Below are positions 3,862-25,777 of a stretch of 64,000 nt of DNA, piece by piece. Both the position numbers and the translations under genes were made by a program. The notes below the pieces were generated by a model. That model was not told the origin of the DNA and searched no databases. It saw only the letters and a program-made list of their open reading frames with translations. The DNA is from a virus. Location: the IMG/VR virus record IMGVR_UViG_3300028829_004377, positions 1-64,000 of that record; one strand, written 5' to 3'. Position 1 is the first letter of the stretch. Each line of letters begins with the position of its first letter.

Positions 3862-3863
3862 AA

Positions 3864-3871: not shown

Positions 3872-3905
3872 AACTAACTATAACAGTTTAAAGAGGAATA
3901 GACAA

Positions 3906-4862: not shown

Positions 4863-5426
4863 ATGAAAACGGAAATTATGAATACAGTCTATACGCCGGA
4901 AACTGCTTACTTCGTTGACGATGATAAAACTACTATCAACGTCAACGTTGAAGAGCACTTTCACGTAGAAGGCTATGACGGGCAAGCGCCTGAAAGAGTT
5001 AGCAAATTTTTGAGGACGGTGTCAGTTGGACCCAATCCAATCTTCGAAGAGTTTGTTAAGCAAGTTCCTTTAACAGTTGTTGAAGAAAATACTACCAAGT
5101 TCCACGAAAGATTAATCAGCGAGCACAACGAGTTACGTAACGAAATTACCGCAGAGGTAATGAGTGATATCGGAAAACAGTTGTCTAAGCAAGGTGAAAC
5201 TGCAGCCCCTGCAGCTACTAACCTTACAGAGTTGACTCAAGATGATCTTTTTAAATTAAAATTACAAGCTTTCGAAATCGATGAAGTAAAGAGTTCTAAG
5301 AATAGAGAACTTAAAGCTAAGATTAGAAAAGCTGGTAACCTTATGGAAATAGTAGCTATGACCGCAGCAACTATTTTAGACAATCCTGCTAAACAAACTG
5401 AAGAGACGCCTCCGGAAACAGCCTAA
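4863..5426 (+). CDS. Uncharacterised 187-aa protein coupled to the first radical-SAM gene
   Basis: I do not recognise this protein. It has an acidic, His-containing N-terminal region (FVDDDKTTINVNVEEHFHVEG), a helical middle, and a C-terminal region rich in Lys and Glu ending in a Thr/Pro/Glu tail. There is no signal peptide or membrane segment. Its stop codon overlaps the ATG of the twitch radical-SAM gene (TAATG at 5424-5428), so the two are probably made together. It could be a partner or substrate of that enzyme, or simply the last structural gene of the preceding block. Confidence 0.6.
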   Translation: MKTEIMNTVYTPETAYFVDDDKTTINVNVEEHFHVEGYDGQAPERVSKFLRTVSVGPNPIFEEFVKQVPLTVVEENTTKFHERLISEHNELRNEITAEVMSDIGKQLSKQGETAAPAATNLTELTQDDLFKLKLQAFEIDEVKSSKNRELKAKIRKAGNLMEIVAMTAATILDNPAKQTEETPPETA

Positions 5427-6847
5427 TGGCTTATCCTTCAGAAACGTTTTGTGCACTTCCATGGATGCATGTAAGTACTAGACCTAATGGACATATGCGT
5501 GTCTGTTGTACTGCTAATGCATCTGGAGTACAGAATGCAGATAGTACAAATAAAACAGCTTCAGAAGTAGGTGTATTAAGAAGAGAAGACGGTAAACCTG
5601 CTAACCTAGCAACTACTGGTTTACTTGAAGCTTGGAATAATACCTATATGAAAGAAACTAGAAAGACTATGATGAGAGGTGAAAAACCAGCATCATGTCT
5701 TAAATGTTATAAGGAAGAAGAAGCTGGACATAGATCTAAAAGACAATGGGAAACTGATAAGTGGATTAGAGATGAAGGTATTGAATCTATACTACAAGGT
5801 TACGATACTGAAACTGGTGAAGTACCTGCTCAAGTCAGATACGTAGACTTAAGATTAGGATCTAAATGTCAATTAGCATGTGTTATGTGCTCACCGCATG
5901 ATTCATCTAACTGGGTACCTGACCATAAAAAAATATGGTCTAATTTAAAAAACAAAAAACTTAAAAGTACTATGGCTTGGGAAAAAGAGTCAGGTAAGTT
6001 AGCTTGGTCCGGTGGTTCATATAACTGGCATAAAAAGAATAAAGATTTTTTTCCAGAATTATATACTCAAATACCTCATATTAAACAATTGTATTGGGCA
6101 GGTGGTGAACCTCTAATACATGATGAGCATTATGAACTATTAGAAAAATGTATAAGAGAAGGTTATGCTTCTCAAATGGAAGTAAGATATAACTCTAATG
6201 GTTTAGAATGGAGAGATGATCTATTCGATTTATGGAAACATTTCAAGAAAGTAATATATCATTTTAGTATAGATGATATTGAAGACAGATTAAACTTTGT
6301 TAGATACCCTGCAGAGTTTAAACATTTAGAAAAGCAGATGCATGTATTAGATAATTACCCTCATGGTAATTTAATGCTTACTACTGCTTTTACAGGAATG
6401 GCAATTAATTATTTTTACGTACCAGAATTTATTAAGTGGAAAATAAACAGTGAGTTTAAACTACTTAATCAGTGGCCTTCTGGTGCAGGTATATTTAGTT
6501 GTCACTTAGCTTATTGGCCCCCTCAGTTGAACGTTAAAGCTTTACCTACTTTTTTTAAAGAAGAAGTCAGACTTAAATGGGAACAAGATTTGTATCCTTG
6601 GCTAGAACAAAATTGGCAAAAATGTACAGGTGTTAAAGAGCACAATGTATCTTATGAACAATGGCGTAATAGTGAATATGGTATTAAAAGATTAGAAGGT
6701 CTTTTAAACTTTATGGATGCTGAAGATTGGTCAGAAAGATTACCTGAGACTGCTGAGTGGTGTTATACTGTAGCAGAAACTAGAGGTCAAGATTTTGATA
6801 AAATATACCCAGATATGGATTGGCTAAAATGTTATCTAAAAAAGTAG
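5426..6847 (+). CDS. Twitch-domain radical SAM enzyme
   Basis: The protein (473 aa) begins with a Cys-containing twitch/SPASM-like segment: FCALPWMHVSTRPNG with C9, then C27-C28 and C91-x2-C94. It continues into a radical SAM core with the 4Fe-4S motif C148-x3-C152-x2-C155 (CQLACVMC), followed by WAGGEPL, the SAM-binding GGE motif. Such enzymes cleave SAM to a 5'-deoxyadenosyl radical, and the extra cysteines usually bind an auxiliary cluster used on peptide or protein substrates. The substrate is unknown. It is the first of a series of related genes and is translationally coupled on both sides. Confidence 0.88.
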   Translation: MAYPSETFCALPWMHVSTRPNGHMRVCCTANASGVQNADSTNKTASEVGVLRREDGKPANLATTGLLEAWNNTYMKETRKTMMRGEKPASCLKCYKEEEAGHRSKRQWETDKWIRDEGIESILQGYDTETGEVPAQVRYVDLRLGSKCQLACVMCSPHDSSNWVPDHKKIWSNLKNKKLKSTMAWEKESGKLAWSGGSYNWHKKNKDFFPELYTQIPHIKQLYWAGGEPLIHDEHYELLEKCIREGYASQMEVRYNSNGLEWRDDLFDLWKHFKKVIYHFSIDDIEDRLNFVRYPAEFKHLEKQMHVLDNYPHGNLMLTTAFTGMAINYFYVPEFIKWKINSEFKLLNQWPSGAGIFSCHLAYWPPQLNVKALPTFFKEEVRLKWEQDLYPWLEQNWQKCTGVKEHNVSYEQWRNSEYGIKRLEGLLNFMDAEDWSERLPETAEWCYTVAETRGQDFDKIYPDMDWLKCYLKK

Positions 6848-7893
6848 CTGTAGAGCATAACAATAAAAATTCAGATAATTTAGTAAAGATAGAATGGTTC
6901 ATTTCTAAGAGATGTAACTTTCACTGTTCTTATTGTGATAAGCATACGCATGATCATAGTTCAGGTTTCCCTGACTTAGATACAATGAAAGCTACATTAG
7001 ATAAGATAATGAATACTACTGATAAAAAGATTAGACTTTCTTTTACTGGTGGTGAACCTACTATATGTAAACACTTATTTGACTTTTGTAAATATGGTAA
7101 AGAAAAATACGGTGATAGAATTAATCAGTTTAGTATTACTACTAATGGTTCTAGAACTACAAAGTATTATGTAGAGTTATCACAGTATGTGAACTCTATG
7201 ATATTTTCTTATCATATGGAATATCATGACGTTGAAAAGATACCTGATAGTGTCTATGCAGTTCATGAAGCAGGTAACCTTCAACACTTACATGTTCACA
7301 TGATGATGCTACCTACAGTATTTGATAAAGCAGCTAAGCAAATAGATGAGTTTAGAAAAAAAGGTATAGCAGTTTCAATAAGAAGAATAAGACCTGCTTA
7401 TAGAGAAGATAATAAAGAAATGAGATTACCTTTTGATAATGATAAACAAATAGCGTCAATAAATTTAACTGGTTCAGATGGTAGACCAGATTATAGCGGC
7501 GATAAAGGCTATTATACTGATGAAGAACTAAACTATCTTAAAAATATTCCAGTATCAGATTTTAAAAATGTTATTGCACATGAAGTAAACGATAACTATG
7601 AAGTAAGTAATAGAGAGACTAACGTAAATGAGTTTACAGTAGCTAAAAATAATCAATATCTAGGTTGGTATTGTTGGGCTGGTATACAAAGTCTAAGAAT
7701 AGAACCTAGCGGTGATGTATGGAATGCTACTTGTAGAACTAAAAAACTAGGGAACATTTTTAAAGAGTTTACTATGATTAGTAAACCAGAACCTTGTATA
7801 AGAAATTGGTGCGCATGCGCTGCTGATCTTAATACAACAAAAGTAAAAGATCTTATATACGGGGATCTAGTAAGGGTAGGACATGAACTTTAA
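6829..7893 (+). CDS. Radical SAM enzyme with C-terminal cysteine region
   Basis: This is a radical SAM protein of 354 aa. The cluster motif C29-x3-C33-x2-C36 (CNFHCSYC) is followed by SFTGGEPT. The C-terminal third has further cysteines (WYCWAGIQSL, then ATCRTKKLG, then CIRNWCACAAD), consistent with a SPASM-like auxiliary-cluster domain. I chose the ATG at 6829 rather than a TTG nine bases upstream. The start lies within the end of the previous gene. It lacks the N-terminal twitch region of its neighbour, so it is a different subfamily. The substrate is unknown. Confidence 0.85.
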   Translation: MLSKKVAVEHNNKNSDNLVKIEWFISKRCNFHCSYCDKHTHDHSSGFPDLDTMKATLDKIMNTTDKKIRLSFTGGEPTICKHLFDFCKYGKEKYGDRINQFSITTNGSRTTKYYVELSQYVNSMIFSYHMEYHDVEKIPDSVYAVHEAGNLQHLHVHMMMLPTVFDKAAKQIDEFRKKGIAVSIRRIRPAYREDNKEMRLPFDNDKQIASINLTGSDGRPDYSGDKGYYTDEELNYLKNIPVSDFKNVIAHEVNDNYEVSNRETNVNEFTVAKNNQYLGWYCWAGIQSLRIEPSGDVWNATCRTKKLGNIFKEFTMISKPEPCIRNWCACAADLNTTKVKDLIYGDLVRVGHEL

Positions 7894-8185
7894 AAGAGCA
7901 ACAGTAAATGACGACGTTTTTTGTACATTTCCTTTTGTACATATAGCTACAAAAACCGCAGGTGAAATAAAACCTTGTTGTAGAGCTAGACCAACTAGTA
8001 ATATACAAGACGAGAGCTTAGAAGAAGCTTGGAACAACCCAAGAATGAGAGCTATTAGAAAAGAATTATTATCTGGTATAAAGTCTCCTGAGTGTAATGC
8101 TTGTTGGAAGCATGAAGATCAAGGTATAAGATCTATGAGACAAAGGACAGTAAAGAATCATATTAAGACTTTCGGACCTACTTAA
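7883..8185 (+). pseudogene. Twitch radical SAM gene, 5' part of a frame-disrupted copy
   Basis: The 100-aa product matches the N-terminal twitch segment of its neighbours: FCTFPFVHIATKTAG, then KPCCRAR, then CNACWKHEDQG. It stops at a TAA (8183-8185) exactly where the radical SAM core should begin. The core continues in another frame from 8167 onward (next entry). The conserved Asp-hydrophobic-Arg and the last two cluster cysteines survive in that second frame, but the first cysteine does not. A small deletion plus frameshift across the cluster motif best explains this. A sequencing error is possible. Confidence 0.75.
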
Positions 8186-8193
8186 AGTGTAGA

Positions 8194-9042
8194 ATGTGTC
8201 ATCCAGTAGATAGTACTTCTTGGGCTCAAGACTGGGGTGCAATAAAAGGATTAATGCAAAAGCATAATAAGAGTACTTATGAAAAAGTAGAGCAGTTTAA
8301 CATAGAAAGAAAACCTTATGTTAGTAAATGGCACACTGAAGAGTTCTGGGATGAGTTTAAAGCATTATGTCCATACTTTAGAGAGATATATTTTGCAGGA
8401 GGTGAGCCTCTAACTGATCCTTTACATTATAAAGTCTTACATTATATTATGGAGTACGGAGAAGCAGATAAAGTATCATTAAGATATGCTACTAATATGA
8501 CTAAGTTAAATTATAAGAAAGACAATGTCTTAGAAATGTGGAATAGTTTTAAAAGAGTTCATATTAATATTAGTATTGACGGTACAGGGGATATCTATAA
8601 TTATATTAGACAGTTAGGTGATTATAAAGTAGTACAAGAAAACATTTTAAAGGTAATTGATCATCCTAAACTTTATAAGATAGCTGGTGCATTGACTTTA
8701 CAAGTTTACAACATATGGTTTATGCCAGAGATAGCTAAAGACTTTGAAGATATGGGTATAGAATTACACACTCATAGAGTCAATTATCCTACGTTCTTAG
8801 ATTGTAGAGTTATACCTCCTAAGTTTAAACAACAAATAAAAAATAAATTAAGAACTTCTAAGTTTGCAAATAATCCTCATTTTATGGATGCTATTAATAC
8901 ATTAGATGGAGACATGACTGAACTTATTCCTAAGTTTATAGAATTTTCAGATACCTTAGATGTTAAACAACAAGTTGATATATCTTGGAGAGATCTGTTA
9001 CCTGATATGGCAGAAGAAATGGATGCGTTCGTTGCTAGATAA
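8194..9042 (+). pseudogene. Twitch radical SAM gene, 3' part of the frame-disrupted copy
   Basis: This open frame of 282 codons has no proper start of its own and begins inside the cluster motif. Reading its frame upstream gives DFRTYLKCRMCHP, where intact neighbours read DLRLGNLCNLKCRMCNP. The first cluster Cys position is Thr, and about four residues are missing. The rest is intact, with FAGGEPLTDPLHY and ISIDGTGD like the paralogues. If translated alone the protein would lack a complete 4Fe-4S site and probably be inactive. That the remaining 280 codons are undamaged suggests a recent event or a base-calling error. Confidence 0.75.
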
Positions 9043-10321
9043 ACCTTGCGTAGCTCCTTTTACTTCTGTGAACGTTGACTCTACGGGTCAAGTGGTACCT
9101 TGTTGTGTATACAATATGAAAGGTGATCATGATGCTTGGGATAAAAATTTAGATACTAATGTAGGTAATAATATTAGAAATAAATTTAGAAGTTGGGATT
9201 GGTTAAGAAAAGATATTAATGAAGGTAAGTATCCTTCTAATTGTAATGTATGTAAGTTAAGAGGTCAAGCAGGTAAAACTAGAGCAGATGATTATAGAAG
9301 AAACTTAGAACCTTATATTACTGATGAAATGACTAAACCTAAAATACTTATGATGGATTTAGATCTAAGTAATAAATGTAATTTGAAATGTTTACATTGT
9401 GGAGTTCATAGTTCAACTGGTTGGTTAAAAGAAGAAGAAAAATTAGTCAAGATTGAAAATAATAAGTTCAATAGAGAATCTAGACCAGGTATGATTAGAG
9501 TTAAACATAACACTATATCTGATCTATTAGAGTTTCCTAGTCTTACACAAAACGTTAGAATGATAGAAGTTAAAGGTGGAGAACCTTTATATCAAGATGA
9601 AAGATATGATCTATTAGATGTGTTTATTAATCATGGAGTATCAAAAAATATAACGTTAAAATATATTACAAATATGACTTATAGAGATAAAAAGCTTCTT
9701 ACTATGTGGTCTAACTTTCATAGAATAAGACTTATAATAAGTATTGAAGGTACAGGAGAGTTGTATAATCTTATTAGAGGACATAAAACTGCTACTACTA
9801 AAACTATAAGTGATAATGTAAATTGGTATATAGATACCTTTCATGAAATGAAAAAAAATAAACACGATTGTTGGTTAAAAGAAAAAATAGAACCTCTAAA
9901 AGATAATAGAACAATAATTGAACCTCAGTTAAGAATTAATTGGTCTGTAACTGCTATGGCTTGTAACTTATTAGACATTGATAATATTTTTAACTTTATA
10001 GAAAAGACAGATAAGAATTATAAAAATGGCGGTGTAGGAAGTATACCTACATTAGTTGTTAATCCTACTTATCTAGATTATAGAGTTTTACCTAGATGGT
10101 ATATTGATGAAGCTAGAGAGATATTTAGAAGAAGTCACCATAATGCAGTTAAAAATTTTAATAAGATGTTAACTGTATGGGACGAAGAGGAAAGAATACC
10201 TAAATTTATAAAGTTTATTGAATATATTGAAACTATGTGCGAGATTAGAAAACAGAATCCTTCTTGTATAAAGTATTGGAAAGAACTAAAAGATGAATAT
10301 GAGGTTTTAAAAAATGCTTAA
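9023..10321 (+). CDS. Twitch-domain radical SAM enzyme
   Basis: This is a 432-aa enzyme from the ATG at 9023, giving MRSLLDKPCVAPFTSV, which aligns with the start of the other twitch proteins; longer frames only extend into the previous gene. The N-terminal cysteines are C9, C27-C28, C74 and C77. The core motif is C119-x3-C123-x2-C126 (CNLKCLHC), followed by VKGGEPLYQDERYD. An insertion of about 30 residues rich in Lys and Asn sits after the ISIEGTGE strand. The substrate is unknown. The high sequence relatedness to the genes at 5426, 7883 and 12051 points to duplication and divergence. Confidence 0.85.
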   Translation: MRSLLDKPCVAPFTSVNVDSTGQVVPCCVYNMKGDHDAWDKNLDTNVGNNIRNKFRSWDWLRKDINEGKYPSNCNVCKLRGQAGKTRADDYRRNLEPYITDEMTKPKILMMDLDLSNKCNLKCLHCGVHSSTGWLKEEEKLVKIENNKFNRESRPGMIRVKHNTISDLLEFPSLTQNVRMIEVKGGEPLYQDERYDLLDVFINHGVSKNITLKYITNMTYRDKKLLTMWSNFHRIRLIISIEGTGELYNLIRGHKTATTKTISDNVNWYIDTFHEMKKNKHDCWLKEKIEPLKDNRTIIEPQLRINWSVTAMACNLLDIDNIFNFIEKTDKNYKNGGVGSIPTLVVNPTYLDYRVLPRWYIDEAREIFRRSHHNAVKNFNKMLTVWDEEERIPKFIKFIEYIETMCEIRKQNPSCIKYWKELKDEYEVLKNA

Positions 10322-11384
10322 GTGGCCAATAGGAGCAAAAGAAACTGAAAAACTACAATTAGAGTTAACTTCTTATTGTAATTTAGCTTGCCCTGGATGC
10401 GAAAGACTAGCTAATCCAGCTGCTCTTCCATTCCTTAATACTAATTATATGCATTTAGAAGATATTAAGAAATGGTTTACTATTGAAACTTTACCAAAGC
10501 TTGCAATAATTAGTTTTTCAGGTCAGATTGACGAACCATTAATACATCCTGAAGCAGATAAAATTATTGAATACTTAATAGAAGAATTTCCTAGTACAAG
10601 AATTTCAATTAGTACTAATGGTGCTACTAGAAATGAGAAGTTCTTTACTAGGATAGGGGAGATATCTAACAAGTATAAAAGACCTAATGGTGATAAAAGA
10701 TTAGATGTTGAGTTTGCTATTGATGGTCTAGAAGATACTAATCATATCTATAGAGTAGGAGCTGATTGGAATAAACTTATGAGAAACGCTAAAGCATTTA
10801 TAGCAGCTGGAGGATTAGCTTCATGGAAGTTTATTATGTTTAACCATAATTATAATCAAGTTAAAGAAGCTAATAAGATGGCTGTTGAAATGGGTTTTCA
10901 TAGATTTACTTATATAGCTTCAGCTAGAAAATCTACAGAAAAATTAGGAATGAACTTTGTACCTAAGTTAATAAAAGGCAAGAAGCCTATTAACTCTAAA
11001 GCATTTGGTTCGGTTAAAGCACCTCCGGGTCAACCTAAAAAGACACTTAATGATGGATCTAAACCTAAAATTCATTGTAAAGCGTTAAAAAGACTAGATG
11101 GCAGAAAAGGGTGGTTATTCGTTAACCATGATGGATTTGCACAACCGTGTTGCTATTTTGGTTTCCAACATAGAACAATAGATCCTTTAGATAACTTACA
11201 TAATATTTCTGCAGAAGAATTTTTTGATACTAGTCCTTTTTTAACAGGTTTAATGGAAAGTTGGGAATCAGATAAACCTAATCCTATATGTGCAAGAAAA
11301 TGTACTGGAGCAGGAAATAGAGATAGCGCTATAACATTATTAAGGAACGGAGAAGAACAATGGGAAGTAGTAAAGAACAGATAG
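10314..11384 (+). CDS. Radical SAM/SPASM enzyme
   Basis: This 356-aa protein has the cluster motif C22-x3-C26-x2-C29 (CNLACPGC) close to the N-terminus and lacks a canonical GGEP, showing FSGQIDEPLIHPE instead. A strand AIDGLEDTNHIYR is shared with the gene at 14473. The C-terminus has SPASM-like cysteines (HCKAL, then QPCCYFG, then CARKCTG). SPASM enzymes typically act on ribosomal peptides or proteins through auxiliary Fe-S clusters. The gene overlaps both neighbours by a few codons. The substrate is unknown. Confidence 0.83.
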   Translation: MLKWPIGAKETEKLQLELTSYCNLACPGCERLANPAALPFLNTNYMHLEDIKKWFTIETLPKLAIISFSGQIDEPLIHPEADKIIEYLIEEFPSTRISISTNGATRNEKFFTRIGEISNKYKRPNGDKRLDVEFAIDGLEDTNHIYRVGADWNKLMRNAKAFIAAGGLASWKFIMFNHNYNQVKEANKMAVEMGFHRFTYIASARKSTEKLGMNFVPKLIKGKKPINSKAFGSVKAPPGQPKKTLNDGSKPKIHCKALKRLDGRKGWLFVNHDGFAQPCCYFGFQHRTIDPLDNLHNISAEEFFDTSPFLTGLMESWESDKPNPICARKCTGAGNRDSAITLLRNGEEQWEVVKNR

Positions 11385-12061
11385 GTTGGTGTTATCCAGA
11401 TAATAATCTACATGATTATATTATCTATCCACCAGAAAGATATGTAGATAATTATAATGCTTGGAGAGGTTATAATAAGCAAGGTTATATGCATTGTCCT
11501 TCTTATCAAAACTTTTTTTCTAATACTTACGTAATAAAATCTCCTATACAATTTACTGCTACTAGTAGTAAAGGTGAAGTAAAAGTAGAATCAAATCAAG
11601 TAGATGATCATGAAATGAATAGAATAGTTAGTTATCATTCATCTAATGATATGCATGATAGAGACAAACCTTTCTTTCAAATGGCTTTCAAATATTTGTT
11701 TATAGCTGATCAACCTACTCTAATGGATATAATGCCCCCGTTTAACCACTCGTACCCCGGTCAAATCATAGGAGGTAGTTTCAATATACACAGTTGGGTT
11801 AGAAATGTATCTTGGGGCTTTCAGTTTAATAGAACTAATGATATACTTAAAGTAGAAAGAGGTGATCCTTTAATGTATATTAGATTTACTAATTCAGAGT
11901 TAAAGAATAACATAAAGTTAGTTAAATGTAAACTAACAGAAGATATATTTAAAGAGCTAGATAGAAAAAGAGATCTAGGTAAATTTGTAAAAGGTAAAAA
12001 GTTTAACTTTATTGCTACTGCACTTAAACTAAGAAAACAAAGGCTTGTCTATGAAGAATAA
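11360..12061 (+). CDS. Uncharacterised 233-aa protein, possibly DUF6065-like
   Basis: The protein lies between two radical SAM genes and overlaps both. It has many aromatic and short beta-strand-like stretches, for example NTYVIKSPIQFTAT, GGSFNIHSWVR, FNRTNDI and GDPLMYIRFTN. The order of these elements reminds me of DUF6065-type proteins (a CPFDF-like strand and a late EKGEP.C.I strand), but the match is from memory and weak. There is no signal peptide, membrane segment or catalytic motif that I can name. It may be a partner or oxygenase-like accessory of the adjacent radical SAM enzymes. Confidence 0.55.
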   Translation: MGSSKEQIGWCYPDNNLHDYIIYPPERYVDNYNAWRGYNKQGYMHCPSYQNFFSNTYVIKSPIQFTATSSKGEVKVESNQVDDHEMNRIVSYHSSNDMHDRDKPFFQMAFKYLFIADQPTLMDIMPPFNHSYPGQIIGGSFNIHSWVRNVSWGFQFNRTNDILKVERGDPLMYIRFTNSELKNNIKLVKCKLTEDIFKELDRKRDLGKFVKGKKFNFIATALKLRKQRLVYEE

Positions 12062-15495: not shown

Positions 15496-15496
15496 T

Positions 15497-18010: not shown

Positions 18011-18393
18011 ATGCTATTATAGATGGAGGTTATGAATCAGTAACTTTTATAGCTAGTAATGAGAGACCACGATTAATAAGAGAAGTCAAAGGATTAGGAA
18101 TAGATCTAGACGTTGTAGATTATGATCCTAAGTTTGAGAATCCAAGAGATGCTATATTCGATAATATAACCTTTAACGAATTAGTAGTTGATTTTAATAC
18201 TGAAAAGCACTATCCTATAGGTAAAGTATATAAAGGTGATATGATTGTTATAGGAGATAACGATCAGCATAATGGCGATTGTAACCCTACAACTAGTTGT
18301 GATCAAATTATTCTCGATAACGAAATAACTAAAGTAGATTTTAACTATAATATAGATAAGTGGTACATAGTAAAGGGTAGTAATGCAAATTGA
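17977..18393 (+). CDS. Uncharacterised 138-aa protein
   Basis: I do not recognise this protein. It begins 34 bases inside the previous gene and ends 11 bases inside the next. Visible features are YESVTFIASNERP and DVVDYDP, which look like beta-alpha units of a Rossmann-type fold, and HYPIGKVYKGDMIVIGDND. Together with the following methyltransferase-like gene it may form a two-subunit enzyme, or be a split version of one longer protein. No catalytic residues can be named. Confidence 0.5.
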   Translation: MGRRDVEKLLLNAIIDGGYESVTFIASNERPRLIREVKGLGIDLDVVDYDPKFENPRDAIFDNITFNELVVDFNTEKHYPIGKVYKGDMIVIGDNDQHNGDCNPTTSCDQIILDNEITKVDFNYNIDKWYIVKGSNAN

Positions 18394-19009
18394 ATACGCT
18401 AATATGCTTAAGTGGTTCTATTATAATCATCCGGATAAGATAGATAGATTCGTTCAATCAGTATCTGAGAATCAACAGAAATCTAAACAACAATTATTTT
18501 ATGGTCTTAAAGATAAAAATATAGTTATACCTACAGATGAGAATGGTGAAGTAACTATAGAGATAGTAGGAGGCTGGTTTGGTTGGCCTCTTATAGGTAT
18601 GTTAGTTAAGTTTTTAGATATACCAATAAGAAAAATTAATTTTTATGAATTAGATGATTTCGCTTGCACTGTACTAAGAAAGTATATAGATATATTTAAA
18701 CCAGCTTTTGAAATTAATATATTCAATCAAGATTGGTTTGAAGATACAACCGAAAGAAGAGCTCATATAATTATTAATACTAGTTGTGAGCATATGGACG
18801 ACTTTGGTAATATGAAAAAAGTATTCATAGCACCAGAAAGAACTCTACTTATGATTACTAGTAATGATAAAGTAGATGAACCAGATCATATTAATTGTAA
18901 AGAGAGTGCTGTTCAGTTAGCTAAAGATAATGATATTCATATGCTACATGGTGATAGAATATGGTTCGAAGATTATAGAAGATTTATAGTGGTAGGAAAA
19001 TGGAAGTAA
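18383..19009 (+). CDS. Possible SAM-dependent methyltransferase-like protein
   Basis: The 208-aa protein has an apparent Rossmann order: a strand-loop VEIVGGWFGWPLIGML-like region (residues ~58-72), an acidic strand end INFYELDDFA, and IIINTSCEHMDDF, which resembles the catalytic-strand loop of class I methyltransferases. The glycine-rich SAM loop is not canonical, so the assignment is tentative. It overlaps the preceding unknown gene and the Fe-S assembly gene that follows. Confidence 0.45.
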   Translation: MQIEYANMLKWFYYNHPDKIDRFVQSVSENQQKSKQQLFYGLKDKNIVIPTDENGEVTIEIVGGWFGWPLIGMLVKFLDIPIRKINFYELDDFACTVLRKYIDIFKPAFEINIFNQDWFEDTTERRAHIIINTSCEHMDDFGNMKKVFIAPERTLLMITSNDKVDEPDHINCKESAVQLAKDNDIHMLHGDRIWFEDYRRFIVVGKWK

Positions 19010-19335
19010 TTAAAGAACAAATAATAAGTAGACTAAAAGAAGTTTACGACCCTGAAATATCTATTAACATATATGACTTAGGTTTAATATACGATATCAA
19101 TTTAGAAAAATTACCCTTTGTGACTCTAACACATACATTAACTTCTGCTTTTTGTCCTGCAGCCGATTGGATAATAAAAGAAATAAAGAAAGCAGTAATT
19201 AACTCTCCTGGTGTAAAAGATTGTGAAGTTATTACTACTTTTGATCCTCCATTTGATATGTCAAGAGTAAGCGATGATGTAAAATTAGCAATGGGGTGGC
19301 ATGATGATGAGACGGATAATTGGGAACCTTACTAG
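19000..19335 (+). CDS. DUF59/MIP18-family Fe-S assembly factor (SufT/PaaD-like)
   Basis: Residues 17-32 (DPEISINIYDLGLIYD) are the family signature DPE...n..DLGLI, and C52 lies in TSAFCPAADWI, where the family has its conserved cysteine. The length of 111 aa is normal. DUF59 proteins help mature 4Fe-4S proteins, so its presence in a run of radical SAM genes makes functional sense: the phage may supply assembly capacity for its own clusters. It pairs with the A-type carrier at 52110. A ribosome site (GGTAGGA) lies just upstream. Confidence 0.85.
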   Translation: MEVIKEQIISRLKEVYDPEISINIYDLGLIYDINLEKLPFVTLTHTLTSAFCPAADWIIKEIKKAVINSPGVKDCEVITTFDPPFDMSRVSDDVKLAMGWHDDETDNWEPY

Positions 19336-19883
19336 ACATATTATTAGTTAATACTGGAAACAAATATTCAGAAAAATATGTTGATAATATAGTTTATATG
19401 TTATCTAATACTGGTACTAGGTATGATAAAATACACATAATAAGAGATGAGCAATATGATGGCGTGTGGAATAAACTTCAATTATTTAGAGACTTTAAAA
19501 ACGGTCCTTACTTATATTTCGATTTAGATGTTTGTATAAAAGATAATGTCGAACACTTGGTAAGAGATAACTTTACTTTACTACATGCTTGGTGGAGAAC
19601 TGCTCATCATACTCCATTAAATTCATCTATAATGTCTTGGAAAGGTGACTATAGTTTTTATTATAACACATTTGCAGCTAACTCAGATTATTATATGTTA
19701 AATTATAAAGGCATAGATCAATATATTTACGAATTAGATATGGTGTATGAAACTTATGATCCTGTCTGTACAAGTTACAACTGGCATGGTTTTGATGAAA
19801 AGTGGCCTGTTATAATTTTTAATCAAGCTGGCGAAAAAATGTTAGAGGATGGTCCATGGTCAAAGTATATGCAGTTAGGGTAG
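19320..19883 (+). CDS. Glycosyltransferase-like protein (DxD), second paralogue
   Basis: The 187-aa protein opens with ILLVNTGNKYSEKYVDNI, related to GEKYGPEYVNRL and GTKYGPEYETYL of its paralogues. YLYFDLDVCIKDN holds the D-x-D, and HTPLNSSIMSWKGD matches the VNSSFVMWEGD loop of the gene at 17285. The likely start is a TTG at 19320, because the first ATG would remove the first beta strand. It overlaps both neighbours. It is shorter than usual GT-A enzymes, so it may be a minimal or partner-dependent transferase. Confidence 0.65.
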   Translation: MGTLLDILLVNTGNKYSEKYVDNIVYMLSNTGTRYDKIHIIRDEQYDGVWNKLQLFRDFKNGPYLYFDLDVCIKDNVEHLVRDNFTLLHAWWRTAHHTPLNSSIMSWKGDYSFYYNTFAANSDYYMLNYKGIDQYIYELDMVYETYDPVCTSYNWHGFDEKWPVIIFNQAGEKMLEDGPWSKYMQLG

Positions 19884-20425
19884 GTACCAAGTACGGTCCT
19901 GAATATGAAACCTATTTAAAAAATAAATTACCAAGCATTGAATTTCTAAATAAAGAAGAACATCCTTTTATTCTGCAATGGAATAAATTAAGGTTTATGG
20001 AATTAGACATAAACGAACCTATATGCGTAATAGATGTTGATATTGAATTACATAATGATTATATGGAGTTATTTAATTACCCTATCAATAGAGGAGAATT
20101 TTTAAGTATACCAGCCTGGTGGAGAGATACACACAATGAAAGATATAAAATCAATGGTGGTTTCTATAAATACTACCCTAGAGACTGCAAATACATCGTC
20201 GAAAAATACAGATCTAAACCTGAGTATTATTCGACAAAATATATTAGAAATAAGACGACAGTTGGACCCGTCAACGGAGAACAATACTTTGTCGAAGACT
20301 CAGCAAGACGTCGCCTCAAAGTTATCACAGTTTCAGAAGCCTGGGTTCAACGAGCGGTACAAGACACATTTATTCAAGACGGTGAAGTAAAATTAGTACA
20401 CTACTCTTGGCAACCAACCAAGTGA
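19856..20425 (+). CDS. Glycosyltransferase-like protein (DxD), third paralogue
   Basis: The 189-aa protein begins VYAVRVGTKYGPEYETYL and carries ICVIDVDIELHND with the D-x-D. FLSIPAWWRDTHN corresponds to LLHAWWRTAHH in the gene at 19320. It is the last gene of the plus-strand island; its final 25 bases overlap the 3' end of the first oxygenase gene on the minus strand, so the two transcription units converge with no room for a separate terminator. Confidence 0.65.
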   Translation: MVKVYAVRVGTKYGPEYETYLKNKLPSIEFLNKEEHPFILQWNKLRFMELDINEPICVIDVDIELHNDYMELFNYPINRGEFLSIPAWWRDTHNERYKINGGFYKYYPRDCKYIVEKYRSKPEYYSTKYIRNKTTVGPVNGEQYFVEDSARRRLKVITVSEAWVQRAVQDTFIQDGEVKLVHYSWQPTK

Positions 20426-20868
20426 ATACGTTTAACATTTTTAGTACAATTCATAGCTGTATGTCCTACAGTAGTATCTAACCTATATGCATGACCATTA
20501 GCAGGTACATGTTCTGCTTTATCACCAGTTACATGAAAACAATGTTCATGAGTATTTACAGCTAAATGAACTCTAGGTGTTCTATCTTTATGATACGTAT
20601 AACAAGTCTTAGGGTGCATTAACATAACTCTAGTTCTAACTAAGTTATAATCTTTTATGAATCTTGTTATTTCCCAACTATCATCTGTATTAATAGCATT
20701 GAAATAACTATCAGGTTTATCAGCTACCCAACCGCAGCCATAATGCCAATCGTCTGTAGGAGATTGTAAACTAATTTGATTACCTTCAAACCAACCATGT
20801 TGAGTTACTACTTGATGTAATTCAGCTTTTATTCTTTCTACATCATAGATTTTTGATAACCTATCCAT
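20401..20868 (-). CDS. Fe(II)/2-oxoglutarate oxygenase, Asp/Asn beta-hydroxylase-like
   Basis: The 155-aa protein shows the double-stranded beta-helix facial triad H93-K-D95 (YTYHKDRTPRVHLAV) and H136 (TVGHTAMN), followed by R147 for 2-oxoglutarate. The layout is that of small aspartyl/asparaginyl beta-hydroxylase-like enzymes. Substrates of this family are proteins or small molecules; none is identified here. It is the distal gene of a six-oxygenase minus-strand run, and its end overlaps the convergent glycosyltransferase-like gene by 25 bases. Confidence 0.8.
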   Translation of the reverse strand: MDRLSKIYDVERIKAELHQVVTQHGWFEGNQISLQSPTDDWHYGCGWVADKPDSYFNAINTDDSWEITRFIKDYNLVRTRVMLMHPKTCYTYHKDRTPRVHLAVNTHEHCFHVTGDKAEHVPANGHAYRLDTTVGHTAMNCTKNVKRIHLVGCQE

Positions 20869-21326
20869 TTACTTTTTACCTCTTCAATATCTTCGTCGTA
20901 ACATATCTGAAAGTTAATTCTTAAATTATCGTTATTAACTATTTTATGTTCTTCTAAAGTATTTAAAATTACAGGACCATCACTCATATTATTTCTAGTA
21001 TATAAAGGAGCATAATTTTTAGTTAACGGATGAATAACAACACTAGATCTTTTATTTTGCTTGCCATCTGTATGCCAATCCTGTATACTATCAGGTTGTA
21101 ATCTACTTAACATCATCTTTATATTTTTATTTTTCTTTAAATTATCTATAGGACTATCTTCTAATATATCTAAAACTTCTTGTGTGACTGGAGTGAACTC
21201 TAAAGGTGTTTTAACACCTGTCTTTGTACTATAATGTTCTTTCCACTTAGCAGTTTTAGAATAATTTAATAATGTATCTATATCTTTATCACTTAAAAAT
21301 TTAACTAATGGTATAAGATTTTTCAT
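20838..21326 (-). CDS. Fe(II)/2-oxoglutarate oxygenase-like protein
   Basis: The 162-aa protein has H85-T-D87 (QDWHTDGKQNKRSSVVIHPL), H127 (EEHKIVNN) and R136 (LRINFQICY), the expected order of iron ligands and 2-oxoglutarate Arg. The length matches a minimal beta-hydroxylase-like fold. It overlaps both neighbours in the operon. The sequence differs enough from the flanking oxygenases to suggest a different substrate. Confidence 0.72.
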   Translation of the reverse strand: MKNLIPLVKFLSDKDIDTLLNYSKTAKWKEHYSTKTGVKTPLEFTPVTQEVLDILEDSPIDNLKKNKNIKMMLSRLQPDSIQDWHTDGKQNKRSSVVIHPLTKNYAPLYTRNNMSDGPVILNTLEEHKIVNNDNLRINFQICYDEDIEEVKSKWIGYQKSMM

Positions 21327-22341
21327 CTAAGAAAACGCCTTCTTCAAATAATTCAAATGGATGTACCTTACCAAAGTACTCGTTAGTAAACCAACATTGC
21401 TCTTCTTCGTTGAATTCAAACCAAGGAGCTAATCCTAATACTATAGCAGTTCTTTGTCCTGTACCTTCGCTTATACTTACCTTATGAGGATTCTCTGTAT
21501 TCCAACAATACATATAACCTGGATCATTATGGAAAGTATTTTCTTCTGTATTAATATGTAACTTGCATTTTATATCTGCATTGATAGGAATATTAATTCT
21601 AGTGTTAATAAAGATGTTTTCATCATCATGCCAATGAACATAACCTGGATATTTTAATGTAACCATTCTACTACGAACTATAGAAAATGGTGTAGAGTCT
21701 ATAAATGTACCTAGATAGCCGTGCATAGACGCGGGAGTTCTTTTACAGTAAGCGAATGTATCACTGTAAGTGTTGCGACCTTGTTGCTTAGCTGCTATAG
21801 GGTTGTTCTTATGATCAAAATGTCTTTTACAAAGTTCTTTATATTCTAATTGATTGACAAAACCTTCTTCTTTTAGATATAATAAACCTGCATCTAAAGT
21901 ATACTTGCCTATTATCTCATAAAATGTAGTTCTTTTATTTGCATGGACTAGATCATCCCATATCTTTTTACCTCTTTCATCTTCGAAAAGAGTACCTAAG
22001 TTGTACCTTACCTCACCTAAAGTTTGAGCATTAACAGGTAAGTTATCAGCTTGCCAATGGTTAGGATTATAAGTTAAAGATAACCCACCATAGTTCTTAG
22101 CTCTTTCTTGATTACCTTCTATAATATTACCTTTAAAAAAACCATACCAACCATATTCAGCATATGCTTCTTTACAAGCAGTCCATAAATTATCTATAAC
22201 TTTATTATCAAGTTCTTTTATACAAGGTTTAGAATAATCATACTTATCAAACTTACGAATAGCATCATAAAAGCCTGAATGCTTTTTAATATAATAATGT
22301 ATTATTTCGTCTTCGGGTATGTCTTTAAGATAAAACTGCAT
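21301..22341 (-). CDS. Aspartyl/asparaginyl beta-hydroxylase-like oxygenase with N-terminal extension
   Basis: The catalytic domain is in the C-terminal 120 residues: H238-D-D240 (HWHDDENIFINTR), then the loop PGYMYCWNTENPHKVSI with H286, then R297 (GTGQRTAIVLGL). The first ~220 residues form a helical region with no assignment. The whole is 346 aa, the longest of the set. The PGY..W....PH.V pattern is close to the beta-hydroxylase (AspH-type) families. It sits in the middle of the run, overlapping both neighbours. Confidence 0.82.
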   Translation of the reverse strand: MQFYLKDIPEDEIIHYYIKKHSGFYDAIRKFDKYDYSKPCIKELDNKVIDNLWTACKEAYAEYGWYGFFKGNIIEGNQERAKNYGGLSLTYNPNHWQADNLPVNAQTLGEVRYNLGTLFEDERGKKIWDDLVHANKRTTFYEIIGKYTLDAGLLYLKEEGFVNQLEYKELCKRHFDHKNNPIAAKQQGRNTYSDTFAYCKRTPASMHGYLGTFIDSTPFSIVRSRMVTLKYPGYVHWHDDENIFINTRINIPINADIKCKLHINTEENTFHNDPGYMYCWNTENPHKVSISEGTGQRTAIVLGLAPWFEFNEEEQCWFTNEYFGKVHPFELFEEGVFLDEKSYTIS

Positions 22342-22972
22342 TGTTCTCTATTAACTTTTCTCTAACTATATTATAGTCCATATCAAATACTTGGAACTTA
22401 GCAGTTCTTCTATCTTGATGAAAGGGCTGCACTCTATGTCTTGGAACTGTATTAAGTAATCCTATTCTATAGTTAAAGTGAACATCAGGATCACCAGCCA
22501 TGTTTCCTAAGTATTCTAAGTTAGCTGTATCGTCTTCTAAAGCTACATTTATCGCACATGAACCTAAAGGATCAGAATGCCAAGGTAAGTCACTGCCTGC
22601 TATTTGTTTAAAATATTTTGGTACTACTCTTTTGTTATCTAAAATATATCTAAGTATCATAGTACACTTAACAGTTTCAGGATTTGTATCTGTATACTGA
22701 GACATATCATTTGTAAATTTATATGTATGCCAATTAGGTGTATATTCAAACCAGCTATTTTCAGCTTTACATTTCTCTTTGAGAGGATGCTCAAAAGGTT
22801 TCATCTCAGTTTGATCGAATTCTAATTTAAGAGCTTCAATATCTAACCAATCGAATTTACATTCAGTAACTAAGTCTTCTCTTTTCATATCATTATTAAT
22901 ATCAGGGTCTTTTCTTTCCCAGAGAGTTACTTTACCTAATTGTATTTTTTGTAATGGTTCTACAGTTGACAA
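22325..22972 (-). CDS. Fe(II)/2-oxoglutarate oxygenase-like protein
   Basis: The 215-aa protein has H132-S-D134 (DLPWHSDPLGSCAINV) and H179 (NTVPRHRVQPFHQD) in the double-stranded beta-helix order, with Arg residues after H179 for 2-oxoglutarate. The start is probably a TTG (22972); the nearest internal ATG would remove about 28 residues. It overlaps the TauD-like gene by 13 bases and the beta-hydroxylase by 17 bases. Confidence 0.7.
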   Translation of the reverse strand: MSTVEPLQKIQLGKVTLWERKDPDINNDMKREDLVTECKFDWLDIEALKLEFDQTEMKPFEHPLKEKCKAENSWFEYTPNWHTYKFTNDMSQYTDTNPETVKCTMILRYILDNKRVVPKYFKQIAGSDLPWHSDPLGSCAINVALEDDTANLEYLGNMAGDPDVHFNYRIGLLNTVPRHRVQPFHQDRRTAKFQVFDMDYNIVREKLIENNAVLS

Positions 22973-23823
22973 TTCTCGTACCCAAAACTAGCTCTATATA
23001 AAAACCTATCACCTTCGACAGCATTTCGCTTATGTATACTATGAAACTGATCCATGAATATTAGATCACCTGGTCTCCAATCGTCGTGATGGTACATATA
23101 TTTATCTTGAAATACATGTTTCTTTAACTTGACCATATGCTCTTCCATATTTACAAGTTCATGATCTTCATCACCATCTTCTATTCTTTTCCACATATCT
23201 CTAATATAATGAAAAGTAAAATACAAACCTTTTTCTTTTGTATAAGGGTGAGTATATACTAATGGTTTAGTTACACCATACTTTAACGCTCTAGCACCTC
23301 CTTGAAACATAGCTAGTTCTTTATCATCTTCTTCTAATTTATAAAAGGTATTATTCTCAAACTTGAAATTACAATCTATATTATCGTAATAATGTCTATC
23401 TTCTTTTGATAGATCATTATATGCTTGTCTAGTATCACAGAAAGATGTTACAGAATTTTCACCTGGTTTTAGACAGTATAGCATAACACATGCTTCAGTG
23501 CCACTCTTTCTTCCATTACCATTACTATGCCAATCTAGTTCTTTGTCAGCGAATATACCAATCTTTTCGCCTTCTTTTCTTTCGTTAGTAACTCTAAACA
23601 ATCCTGGATAATCTGGATGCATAAAAAACTGATTAGGTTTAAGTACATTACCTATTTGTTCTAAAATATATAAAAGTCTTTCTTCATTAATAGTTTGATT
23701 ACGTACTAGTATGACATTATCTTTTACTATTTGTCTTCCAAAATATTTTATATCTTCATCAGACATAGAATTAAAATCTATATCATATTCGTACCCAATG
23801 TTCTTTAATGGTTTCCTATCCAT
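22960..23823 (-). CDS. TauD/TfdA-family dioxygenase with an H-x-N iron motif
   Basis: The 287-aa length and layout fit TauD/TfdA enzymes: VILVRNQTI near the N-terminus, the iron motif region DWHSNGNG (H99, N101), and FHSIHKRNAVEGDRF with H261/H264 and R273 near the C-terminus. The canonical motif is H-x-D/E, but here the acidic ligand is Asn. I recall the same WHSNGN in proteins of marine T4-like phages, so it may be a conserved variant rather than an error. A strong ribosome site (AAGGAGG) precedes the ATG. Confidence 0.8.
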   Translation of the reverse strand: MDRKPLKNIGYEYDIDFNSMSDEDIKYFGRQIVKDNVILVRNQTINEERLLYILEQIGNVLKPNQFFMHPDYPGLFRVTNERKEGEKIGIFADKELDWHSNGNGRKSGTEACVMLYCLKPGENSVTSFCDTRQAYNDLSKEDRHYYDNIDCNFKFENNTFYKLEEDDKELAMFQGGARALKYGVTKPLVYTHPYTKEKGLYFTFHYIRDMWKRIEDGDEDHELVNMEEHMVKLKKHVFQDKYMYHHDDWRPGDLIFMDQFHSIHKRNAVEGDRFLYRASFGYENCQL

Positions 23824-24479
23824 AACGCCTCCTTATCAGGTATATTCTTATACTCAATACCAAATATAAGAACTACTCTCCACTTATCATTATTAACAAC
23901 TCTATGAGACCATCCTGTATTTACAAAATAAGCATGTCCGTCTTCCATAGTAAGAGCCCTATAACCTTCTATTCTATTTCTAAACTGAAACTCTGAACCT
24001 ACTGTATCAACTGCTAGTTGCATCCTACATAATACAGAAGTATCAGTATCAATATGCCAGAACAATTCATGCCCTGGAGGCATTACAGATATTCTAGCTC
24101 TAAAAACTTCACCAAATGTTTCTTCTAACCAGTTTTTAATTACACTTACATCAGTATCATTACGCCAGTCATTGTAATTAGTTTCTTCGTTTATATCAGA
24201 ACCTTGTATAGTATTTCTCTGTAATAGTATTTGTCTATAACCACCAGTAGCATTAAAACTATTTTTAAGATCATAGCTATTAGATATCTGATACTTATCT
24301 GTACCTAAATCATCTTCTTTAATCTCAGTTATAATACGTTTAATCTCGTCCATTACATTTTCAGGTGCTTTGGTAATATGTTTAAACGAAGTAAGTTTGT
24401 GTCTAGTAGGTCCTCTATCACCTTTTGCTCTTATTCTAGCATTACTAAAACCATATTGCTTGTATTCTTTATCCGCCAT
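23805..24479 (-). CDS. Fe(II)/2-oxoglutarate oxygenase, Asp/Asn beta-hydroxylase-like
   Basis: The 224-aa protein has the motif order H142-I-D144 (LFWHIDTDTSVLCRMQLAV), H192 (TGWSHRVVNND) and R201 (WRVVLIFGI), plus EDGHAYFVNTG before the distal His, as in aspartyl/asparaginyl beta-hydroxylase relatives. The sequence MPPGHELFWHIDTD is typical of this family. It overlaps the TauD-like gene and the acetyltransferase-like gene. Confidence 0.82.
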   Translation of the reverse strand: MADKEYKQYGFSNARIRAKGDRGPTRHKLTSFKHITKAPENVMDEIKRIITEIKEDDLGTDKYQISNSYDLKNSFNATGGYRQILLQRNTIQGSDINEETNYNDWRNDTDVSVIKNWLEETFGEVFRARISVMPPGHELFWHIDTDTSVLCRMQLAVDTVGSEFQFRNRIEGYRALTMEDGHAYFVNTGWSHRVVNNDKWRVVLIFGIEYKNIPDKEALWIGNH

Positions 24480-25077
24480 ATTTGTCTTTCCAATCTAATA
24501 AAGTCATATGATCTAAAGGAAATTTTTCTTTTACAAAACTGTAAGCTATCACAGATTGCCAAGCTCCTTTTTCATCTTTATTATAAGTTTTGTATAAACC
24601 TGGTTGTGTGTTCCATTCATGACCATAAAATTTATTTAACTTCTTTCCTAATTTTATTATAGTAGGTCTTCTGTAAATATATTCTACAGAAAAAAATAAA
24701 TGGTTTTTATTATTGAAATTATCTACTTGATGTTTAGCAATTACATTACCAGGAGTTAATTCATTAGATTCATATCTAATATTTTTTCTTCTGTATTTTG
24801 GATTGTAATATAATCTAGTCAATATTCTAGCAACATCATTACCAAAGTCTTGTACTGCAGCAAATGCTATCAACTCTTCTTCATCATCATCTGTAACTAC
24901 AAAAGACCAATCTAGATAATTTTTATATGTCTTTTGAAGACACCAATTAGTACTAGTATCAAACCATTTTATATCATCATGTCTAGTTAGCTCTTTACTA
25001 AACCTATTAATGTAATATAGAAATTGATCTTCGTAATTTTTTAATGAAAGTAACTTATACTTTTTTGCCCATAACAT
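24469..25077 (-). CDS. Uncharacterised protein, possibly GNAT acetyltransferase-like
   Basis: The 202-aa protein contains a beta-strand series WSFVVTDDDEEELIAF, then AAVQDF, then ARILTRLYYNPKYRRKN, which resembles the central sheet and the pyrophosphate-binding loop region of GNAT enzymes. No exact acetyl-CoA loop (R/Q-x-x-G-x-G/A) is seen, so this is weak. It lies between the desaturase and the oxygenase genes and overlaps both. No membrane segments are present. Confidence 0.4.
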   Translation of the reverse strand: MLWAKKYKLLSLKNYEDQFLYYINRFSKELTRHDDIKWFDTSTNWCLQKTYKNYLDWSFVVTDDDEEELIAFAAVQDFGNDVARILTRLYYNPKYRRKNIRYESNELTPGNVIAKHQVDNFNNKNHLFFSVEYIYRRPTIIKLGKKLNKFYGHEWNTQPGLYKTYNKDEKGAWQSVIAYSFVKEKFPLDHMTLLDWKDKYGG

Positions 25078-25777
25078 ATTCTATAAACCACGCAGTAGGG
25101 TCCCATTGACCTTTTTCTCGTCCAATCCTATAATGTGCAGCTTTCTTATGATGCTCTTCATGCCAGCCTTCACCAGCAGTAAGAAGATTAGCAAACCAAC
25201 TGTTAGTAGGTTTACCATTCGAATGCCCTAATACATTAAGCAACCCATAACCATGAAATGCAAAAACAACTGGCATACAATATCCGAAAACTAACAATAA
25301 AGGATCTACTAAAAAGAATGCTACCATAATAAAAAGATTGTACATAAAATAGTTTTTATAAAAATGTACTAGTATAGGATTTCTAAGATACTTTTTTATA
25401 AATCTTCTTTTAATTTGAAAATCATACCCCCAAGTATTTACATAAACAGACCACTTGCCTTTTTTAATATGACTATGAGGATCTAAATCTGTATCTGAAT
25501 AAGCATGATGCTGTCTATGAGTAGCAGCCCATGTTAATGCAGGACCTGCTCCTGAAAAGATACCTAATATATTTACACATACTTCAAAGAACTTATTACC
25601 TTCAAATGAACTATGAGAATAAAATCTATGATAACCGCCAGATATAGATACGATAGCGACAACGTACCACCATGCTAACGCAGCAAGAAACATCCACCAT
25701 TGACCATAAATGGCTCCTGGTATAATCATTAAGTGACAAAACATATGATTTATTAGTAACTTAGTAGTATTGCTCAT
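25055..25777 (-). CDS. Fatty-acid (acyl) desaturase, membrane-bound
   Basis: Three histidine boxes are present in order: H50-RFYS-H55, H87-RQ-H90-H91, and a C-terminal HEEHH box after TAGEGW. A further conserved segment NVLGHSNGKPTN precedes the third box. These define delta-9-type membrane desaturases that use a diiron site. Hydrophobic segments flank the boxes, and the 240-aa length is short for the family. The protein would act in the host membrane on acyl chains. It is the promoter-proximal gene of the minus-strand operon. Confidence 0.88.
   Translation of the reverse strand: MSNTTKLLINHMFCHLMIIPGAIYGQWWMFLAALAWWYVVAIVSISGGYHRFYSHSSFEGNKFFEVCVNILGIFSGAGPALTWAATHRQHHAYSDTDLDPHSHIKKGKWSVYVNTWGYDFQIKRRFIKKYLRNPILVHFYKNYFMYNLFIMVAFFLVDPLLLVFGYCMPVVFAFHGYGLLNVLGHSNGKPTNSWFANLLTAGEGWHEEHHKKAAHYRIGREKGQWDPTAWFIEYVMGKKV

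Follow-up and report, generated by a model that had tools for sequence, protein, structure and literature searches.

A radical SAM-rich island with a conserved core between the tail-fibre and terminase genes of a marine T4-like virus

Genes and borders of the island

The stretch of DNA analysed here (the window, 64,000 nt, positions 1–64,000 of IMGVR_UViG_3300028829_004377) belongs to a marine T4-like virus: PHROG matches recover homologues of gp15, gp16/gp17, gp18, portal, prohead protease and gp23 in T4-like order, and its TerL stands at 51–55% to cyanomyoviruses. An island of ~20 kb with 27 ORFs is sandwiched between tail-fibre genes on the left and terminase on the right, inside the late structural region as a preliminary description of the sequence had placed it. 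The left end given there, 4863, has to be moved. The gene at this position has a weak tail-fibre match and its relative in another phage (L093) adjoins a gene of fibre size (2440 aa), which argues against membership in the island; it probably lies outside, so that the enzymes begin at 5426. The right border is also present in an independent 4-kb assembly (99% TerL, L009), and a relative (L031) carries little or no island at the same place.

122–1114, plus: gp15 tail sheath stabiliser, left flank (phrog_227, E 5.6e-56)
1127–4838, plus: baseplate/fibre-type genes 1127, 2551 and 3906, left flank (1127 matches baseplate wedge/fibre connector PHROGs; 2551 and 3906 are so labelled solely from position and sequence type)
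4863–5426, plus: small fibre-associated protein, probably outside the island (weak tail-fibre PHROG)
5426–6847, plus: N-terminal-twitch radical SAM (rSAM) enzyme NTwi_A, core (NF033640, 359 bits)
6820–7893, plus: rSAM enzyme (PF04055, E 6.1e-11; viperin/MoaA-like matches far under cut-offs)
7883–8185, plus: broken N-twitch rSAM, N-terminal SPASM/twitch fragment
8194–9042, plus: broken N-twitch rSAM, catalytic (rSAM-half) fragment, first cluster Cys absent
8960–10321, plus: N-twitch rSAM (NF033640, 193 bits)
10314–11384, plus: rSAM with C-terminal SPASM-like region (PF04055, 30.4 bits)
11360–12061, plus: protein matching phrog_17480 (E 1.2e-16, a PHROG without assigned function)
12045–13220, plus: N-twitch rSAM NTwi_D (NF033640, 399 bits)
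13210–13941, plus: QueC-like PP-loop ATP pyrophosphatase (QueC E 8.6e-6, phrog_1550, SGGADS motif)
13938–14480, plus: kinase-fold protein, RIO/ABC1-like (PF01163, RIO1, E 8.1e-6)
14473–15495, plus: core rSAM (PF04055, E 5.4e-13)
15497–16267, plus: protein of no assigned family, proposed degenerate kinase
16242–17297, plus: core rSAM (PF04055, E 3.3e-13)
17285–18010, plus: DxD glycosyltransferase-like (aligned DxD; relatives in other islands)
17977–18393, plus: uncharacterised protein, kept in the closest relative
18383–19009, plus: core protein of predicted class I SAM-dependent methyltransferase fold (AF2 pLDDT 94.3; Foldseek)
19000–19335, plus: DUF59/PaaD-like Fe-S factor (PF01883, E 3.3e-15)
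19320–19883, plus: DxD glycosyltransferase-like (aligned DxD; phrog_1962, E 0.0012)
19856–20425, plus: DxD glycosyltransferase-like (aligned DxD; relatives in L093 and L094)
20401–20868, minus: 2OG oxygenase, Asp/Asn hydroxylase-like (E 4.1e-4, just under the cut-off; HxD..H..R)
20838–21326, minus: 2OG oxygenase-like, motif alone (HxD..H..R)
21301–22341, minus: 2OG oxygenase-like, motif alone (HxD..H..R)
22325–22972, minus: 2OG oxygenase-like, motif alone (HxD..H..R)
22960–23823, minus: TauD-family 2OG dioxygenase (PF02668, E 1.4e-30)
23805–24479, minus: Asp/Asn beta-hydroxylase-like 2OG oxygenase (PF05118, E 9.3e-6)
24469–25077, minus: protein of no assigned family, proposed acetyltransferase (E 0.075)
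25055–25777, minus: fatty-acid-desaturase family protein (PF00487, E 1.1e-11)
25823–28019, plus: terminase genes gp16 (25823) and gp17 (26184), right flank

PF04055 occurs at eight places in the record, all within the island, in agreement with the seven intact rSAM enzymes and one broken copy counted earlier; the CX3CX2C motif is intact in 5426, 6820, 8960, 10314, 12045, 14473 and 16242. Scored over their whole length, 5426, 8960 and 12045 exceed the curated NF033640 cut-off of 170 bits and belong to this N-terminal-twitch subfamily, which thus has three intact members in the island in addition to the split copy (7883/8194), where the motif is lost. A literature search found no paper on the family. 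The split copy lacks the segment bearing the first cluster Cys and changes reading frame; since that segment is absent, a simple sequencing frameshift is unlikely as the sole origin, and an assembly error may lie behind it. Assignment of 6820 as viperin-like was rejected, since it scores 57 bits where the cut-off is 180.

Most of the remaining assignments held as well. The PP-loop ATPase (SGGADS and the QueC match) has relatives in 11 viral/bacterial loci, and a single-protein scan of viral contigs with it gave no match. The kinase-fold protein at 13938, the DUF59 factor and the desaturase are each backed by a family match, and the six Fe(II)/2OG-oxygenase-like genes by TauD and Asp/Arg hydroxylase matches together with HxD..H..R in the other five. 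Indeed, when the five non-TauD oxygenases were aligned, the invariant columns were H-x-D, T, H and R, that is, the 2OG triad plus Arg; 20838, 21301 and 22325 gave no convincing family match. The three glycosyltransferase-like genes have the aligned DxD in common, with a family match solely at 19320, and a weak one; no glycosyltransferase of the island has a strong match. Two proposals gained no support, namely the degenerate kinase at 15497, for which neither family nor structure matched convincingly, and the acetyltransferase at 24469. Three genes had been overlooked: 11360, 17977 and 18383, whose predicted model resembles many methyltransferases in Foldseek (E 4.6e-7).

Operon layout and late-promoter sites

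Neighbouring genes overlap at 16 of 18 junctions on the plus strand and at all seven on the minus strand. The oxygenase half forms a minus-strand operon of its own and the strands converge at 20401–20425, which makes two operons; the single, almost continuously overlapping transcription unit proposed earlier is therefore retained for the plus strand but not for the whole island.

T4-like cyanophages use NATAAATA as their late promoter (PMC2984593). Two sites bear directly on the operons:

3864–3871, plus: late-promoter-like AATAAATA, before gene 3906, directed towards the plus-strand operon
25782–25789, minus: T4-type late promoter TATAAATA, 5 nt ahead of the desaturase ATG, at the head of the minus-strand operon

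Of 24 NATAAATA sites, twelve lie in intergenic DNA, which totals 1,291 bases in the window; they include one each at the head of the minus-strand operon, before gene 3906 and before gp18. The count of TATAAATA across the whole window is under chance, so that the intergenic placement alone is informative. Across 85 viral loci the motif is enriched 22-fold in intergenic DNA, as against 2.2–4.4-fold for control words, and 26 sites lie at most 100 nt upstream of gene runs containing an rSAM gene. No late-promoter site was found directly ahead of 5426, and a sigma-70 scan stayed at chance level. As consensus matches, not transcripts, these sites suggest that the island is probably switched on late.

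A conserved core and its relatives

Four island genes, NTwi_A (5426, from an orthologue group of 78; AF2 pLDDT 90.8), rSAM 14473, rSAM 16242 and methyltransferase 18383, constitute a conserved core. Among 47 NTwi_A loci whose flanks are known for 4 kb or more on either side, rSAM 14473 lies beside NTwi_A in 44, the methyltransferase in 39, and rSAM 16242 and a DxD glycosyltransferase-like protein in 31 each. DUF59 is near only 4/47 and hence optional. Dozens of uncultured viruses (up to 457 kb) carry the core, which is also present in Bdellovibrionota chromosomes. For three core proteins, a search of 50,697 deposited phages gave no match, and no description of the core was found in the literature.

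The surroundings of the core vary. In one clade the core operon opens with a UDP-sugar-dehydrogenase-like gene, while sister islands contain small glycosyltransferase-like proteins, carbamoyltransferase and GDSL genes. In eight bacterial genomes, GT2 genes lie within 10 kb of the NTwi_A-type rSAM family 14 times, where 2.8 would be expected. At least four predicted TM segments were found in 1/602 non-rSAM neighbours in viral loci versus 22/353 in bacteria, and in the window island TM segments are predicted only in the desaturase; phages have few membrane proteins anyway. Fibre-like genes adjoin the sister clusters too, a closeness to be expected for any cargo in the g15–g18 hot spot.

That hot spot is the hyperplastic region of T4-like cyanophages (Millard 2009, as summarized in PMC2984593), where 4–14 cargo genes, carbon-metabolism and plastoquinone-related, vary between gp15 and the terminase/sheath genes. 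The window island is likewise a variable insert between g15 and g18 in the structural module, but its 27 ORFs are of rSAM, oxygenase and glycosyltransferase type with unknowns. Islands rich in rSAM genes have also been reported. The pelagimyophage host recognition cluster (PMC7029224) shares the marine T4-like setting, glycosyltransferases, rSAM cassettes and fibre neighbourhood; it lies between VrlC and gp14, whereas the window island extends from gp15/fibre genes to gp16, and the portion of that report on the cluster mentions the rSAM content with no conserved core. TARA_ERS488813_N000010, marine and T4-like as well, has 12 rSAM genes with ATC and PaaD, interpreted as Fe-S metabolism in the section of PMC5332604 concerned, which contains no gene-order or core analysis. 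Accordingly, the hot spot, the rSAM-rich islands and the host-surface hypothesis are already known, and the conserved core appears to be new. Tentatively, and with less than even confidence, we regard this core of T4-like and jumbo uncultured phages and Bdellovibrionota as an undescribed biosynthetic system of three rSAM enzymes and a methyltransferase, with exchangeable tailoring enzymes, making a chemically new surface or virion decoration; none of the deposited phage records searched contains this system.

Possible roles of the island

Decoration of either the virion or the host surface, as first suggested, remains the best class of explanation given the late promoters, the sugar genes in sister islands and the GT2 clustering in bacteria, with either acceptor putative. 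In our leading candidate, still somewhat short of an even chance, a module expressed late and active in the cytosol attaches a saccharide-type decoration to virion proteins, with the neighbouring tail fibres as the most likely target. A mobile modification module would occupy the hot spot that separates the tail-fibre genes from terminase; its core (5426, 14473, 16242 and 18383, plus a small DxD glycosyltransferase-like protein) would make a common scaffold, which accessory rSAM, QueC-like, kinase, 2OG-oxygenase, glycosyltransferase and desaturase genes would tailor differently in each phage. Both operons would be expressed late, alongside the structural proteins. Since all enzymes except the desaturase look soluble, they would work in the cytosol and use an acceptor available there late. 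Gene content, conservation of the core, promoter sites and the lack of membrane-assembly genes are observed, and from them we infer the sugar nature of the product, its acceptor and its benefit; the decoration would vary recognition by hosts, competing phages or defences. Tailoring by rSAM enzymes or oxygenases is not known to us from mycobacteriophage virion glycosylation. Virion glycans as such have a precedent in mycobacteriophages, whose capsid and tail-tube proteins carry them (Freeman 2023, cited in PMC12619734).

A close rival, somewhat unlikely in our judgement, is remodelling of the host envelope by the module, acting for instance on sugars of the LPS core or O-chain, which would block adsorption of other phages or keep progeny from sticking to debris. 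This host-surface and superinfection idea is already published for pelagimyophage islands, which are hypervariable, carry glycosyltransferases and rSAM cassettes, and were proposed to bring about an O-chain change (portions of PMC7029224). The proximity of the core to GT2 genes in Bdellovibrionota, with no virion there, points the same way and lends partial weight to a bacterial polysaccharide, the outcome the preliminary description had named as contrary to its proposal, but no defined polysaccharide is known for the set. However, the window island has no flippase, polymerase or membrane glycosyltransferase, and lacks the flippase, lipid-carrier glycosyltransferase and membrane glycosyltransferase of a gtrABC-type O-antigen conversion cassette; membrane proteins are almost absent from the viral clusters, and late rather than early promoter sites fit superinfection blocking less well.

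SPASM/twitch enzymes frequently use peptides. Direct modification of a ribosomal peptide or protein by the rSAM and 2OG enzymes (RiPP-like or on side chains), with sugars minor or absent, seems improbable, yet the solved structure nearest to the core rSAM is that of SkfB, a RiPP maturase (Foldseek E 3e-6, low TM; profile E 1.5e-5), which leaves room for a sugar-free peptide or protein substrate, and several proteins are Asp/Asn beta-hydroxylase-like. The fold similarity is low, though, and extends to nucleotide/nucleoside-type enzymes (viperin, BlsE); the comparison does not separate a peptide from a sugar substrate, and PDB sequence searches started from individual island proteins were uninformative. 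Moreover, no recurrent precursor-like small ORF was found beside the core in a search that short or divergent ones could escape, and the sole conserved small protein (~73 aa) lacks a variable part and does not occur in the window.

Hypermodification of phage DNA is very improbable: oxygenases, rSAM, QueC-like enzymes (here 13210) and glycosyltransferases do occur in known phage DNA-modification pathways, but T4 DNA-glucosylation genes are expressed ahead of the late genes, in contrast to the late promoters and late-region position of the island, and the island yielded no recognisable partner of QueD/QueE/FolE or base-hydroxymethylase type. Least probable of all is support of host or viral Fe-S proteins, for which rSAM, ATC and PaaD were grouped in the relevant section of PMC5332604 and to which DUF59 at 19000 would fit, because DUF59 is optional, the diverse rSAM enzymes consume Fe-S clusters, and the glycosyltransferase, methyltransferase and oxygenase partners are left over.

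With virion decoration as the preferred reading, the absence of the core from deposited phage records implies that its product would not be displayed by any known isolate. The scattered 'radical SAM auxiliary genes' of marine viruses would become one system defined by its conserved core, whose product and attachment site are thereby testable, and a common enzyme set would tie ocean phages to the predatory-type bacteria of the Bdellovibrionota.

Island layout and predicted late promoters

Family searches agree with much of the enzyme inventory proposed in the preliminary description. Seven radical SAM (rSAM) genes are whole and one is split, the stretch with the first cluster cysteine being gone; all eight rSAM places in the whole 69.5-kb virus record, whose first 64 kb make up the window, lie inside the island. 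Family matches likewise bear out the PP-loop protein (QueC-like), the kinase-fold protein (RIO-like), the DUF59 factor and the desaturase. The six 2OG-oxygenase-like genes stand as TauD and two Asp/Asn-hydroxylase-like proteins by family, one of the latter slightly below the family cut-off, and three by motif, the common HxD..H..R pattern, since H, D, T, H and R are the sole invariant columns of a five-protein alignment. DxD is common to all three glycosyltransferase (GT)-like genes, of which one has a family match, a weak one. The acetyltransferase and second kinase were not confirmed by these searches, and gene 18383, previously overlooked, has a class I methyltransferase fold (predicted structure pLDDT 94.3; Foldseek E 4.6e-7). 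The island had been started at 4863, which is a fibre-side gene; the enzymes start at 5426.

Gene overlap holds at 16 of 18 plus-strand and 7 of 7 minus-strand junctions, judged by gene coordinates. The single transcription unit was right for the overlapping plus-strand genes, but the island consists of two convergent operons. Its G+C content is 0.30–0.32, as against 0.32–0.37 across most of the rest.

Flanks of the island and predicted late promoters
Left flank: gp15 and fibre-type genes
5426..6847, plus strand: NTwi_A, N-terminal-twitch rSAM gene
Right flank: gp16/gp17
Before gene 3906: predicted NATAAATA, upstream of the plus-strand operon
Head of the minus-strand operon, 5 nt ahead of the desaturase start: predicted NATAAATA
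Before gp18: predicted NATAAATA

This site is the g15–g18 hyperplastic region known from T4-like cyanophages (PMC2984593). Elsewhere in the structural region, 32619-36122 encodes a 1167-aa protein matching phrog_8578, of unknown function (E 6.6e-68).

NATAAATA is the late promoter in T4-like cyanophages (PMC2984593). Twelve of its 24 predicted sites in the window fall within 1,291 intergenic bases, and in 85 viral loci its density is 22 times higher between genes (control words, 2.2–4.4 times). In one viral clade, an operon of 8–15 genes, the first UDP-sugar-dehydrogenase-like, lies behind a predicted site.

A core shared by viruses and bacteria

The N-twitch alignment scan returned 75 bacterial loci, mostly Bdellovibrionota, and at least 80 viral loci. 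Among the matches listed, NTwi_A orthologues form a clear group (n=78, 345–798 bits; the next score falls to 290), and a viral locus can pack as many as 12 genes of these rSAM families into ~21 kb; a single contig carries 13 candidate rSAM genes. Many residues of NTwi_A are invariant in phages and bacteria alike. In 47 listed loci with at least 4 kb known on each side, NTwi_A is accompanied by rSAM 14473 (44), the methyltransferase 18383 family (39), rSAM 16242 (31) and the DxD GT-like family (31), counts in which close viral relatives enter singly, uncollapsed, and in which retrieval via N-twitch proteins builds in the presence of NTwi and not that of its partners.

Chromosomal bacterial cases include contigs of 936 kb and 328 kb, and N-twitch matches number up to 28 per genome in the eight that were searched. 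A T4-type major capsid gene occurs in 9 of 32 viral records, one of them 457 kb. NTwi_A, rSAM 16242 and the methyltransferase gave zero tblastn matches among 50,697 deposited phages. The closest deposited phages are cyanomyoviruses (TerL identity 51–55%).

Four Bdellovibrionota-type contigs (L107, L164, L105, L151) carry arrays of 7–11 rSAM genes in mixed orientation, some also with oxygenases and QueC-like genes. Island contents are virus-like in contigs L098, L134, L143 and L155 (bins: Gammaproteobacteria, Acidimicrobiaceae, Rickettsiales, Chloroflexi), which may be viral contigs inside bacterial bins. A conserved ~73-aa protein, absent from the window, usually directly follows the core methyltransferase in L179:3834-4058, L192:3084-3311 and 13 more loci, on viral and a few MAG contigs.

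Cargo at this site varies among relatives. G001 (85% TerL) retains much of the plus-strand half in the same order, its oxygenase half being replaced by other genes; in L031 (66% TerL) just a 308-aa and a 90-aa gene separate fibre genes from gp16. In L023 (69% TerL identity), the stretch directly upstream of gp16 is occupied by five different rSAM genes.

T4-like marine genomes rich in rSAM genes, and the rSAM cassettes of pelagimyophage islands with an O-chain hypothesis, are already published (PMC5332604 and PMC7029224, respectively). In the papers searched we found no account of the conserved core, of its occurrence in Bdellovibrionota, of its predicted late promoters or of its absence from deposited phages.

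Chemistry and acceptor

Among the neighbours in viral islands are Asp/Asn hydroxylases, UDP-sugar dehydrogenases, B12-binding rSAM proteins, carbamoyltransferase and GDSL proteins, an aminotransferase family and, judged solely by inspecting sequences, amidinotransferase-like genes. Bacterial neighbours include GT2 (12/124), carbamoyltransferase, NDP-hexose 2,3-dehydratase and DegT; in eight genomes, a GT2 gene is found no more than 10 kb from an N-twitch gene 14 times (2.8 expected). These neighbours and the GT2 excess favour a sugar-type chemistry. In a sister island, L093:1890-3233 is a carbamoyltransferase gene (E 3.1e-46).

Our tentative reading is a late, cytosolic saccharide-type decoration, with virion proteins as the most likely acceptor. 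Remodelling of the host envelope, a close rival, seems somewhat less likely. Viral clusters differ from serotype-conversion cassettes in their scarcity of membrane proteins (at least four TM segments in 1 of 602 neighbours), which is weak evidence because phages in general encode few. Direct modification of peptides or proteins is more doubtful still. The structure closest to NTwi_A is the peptide maturase SkfB, which does not fix the substrate class, given the low TM-scores and that viperin and BlsE rank close behind. DNA modification and Fe-S support are minor options. It is the acceptor that separates decoration of the virion, which we tentatively prefer, from remodelling of the host envelope.
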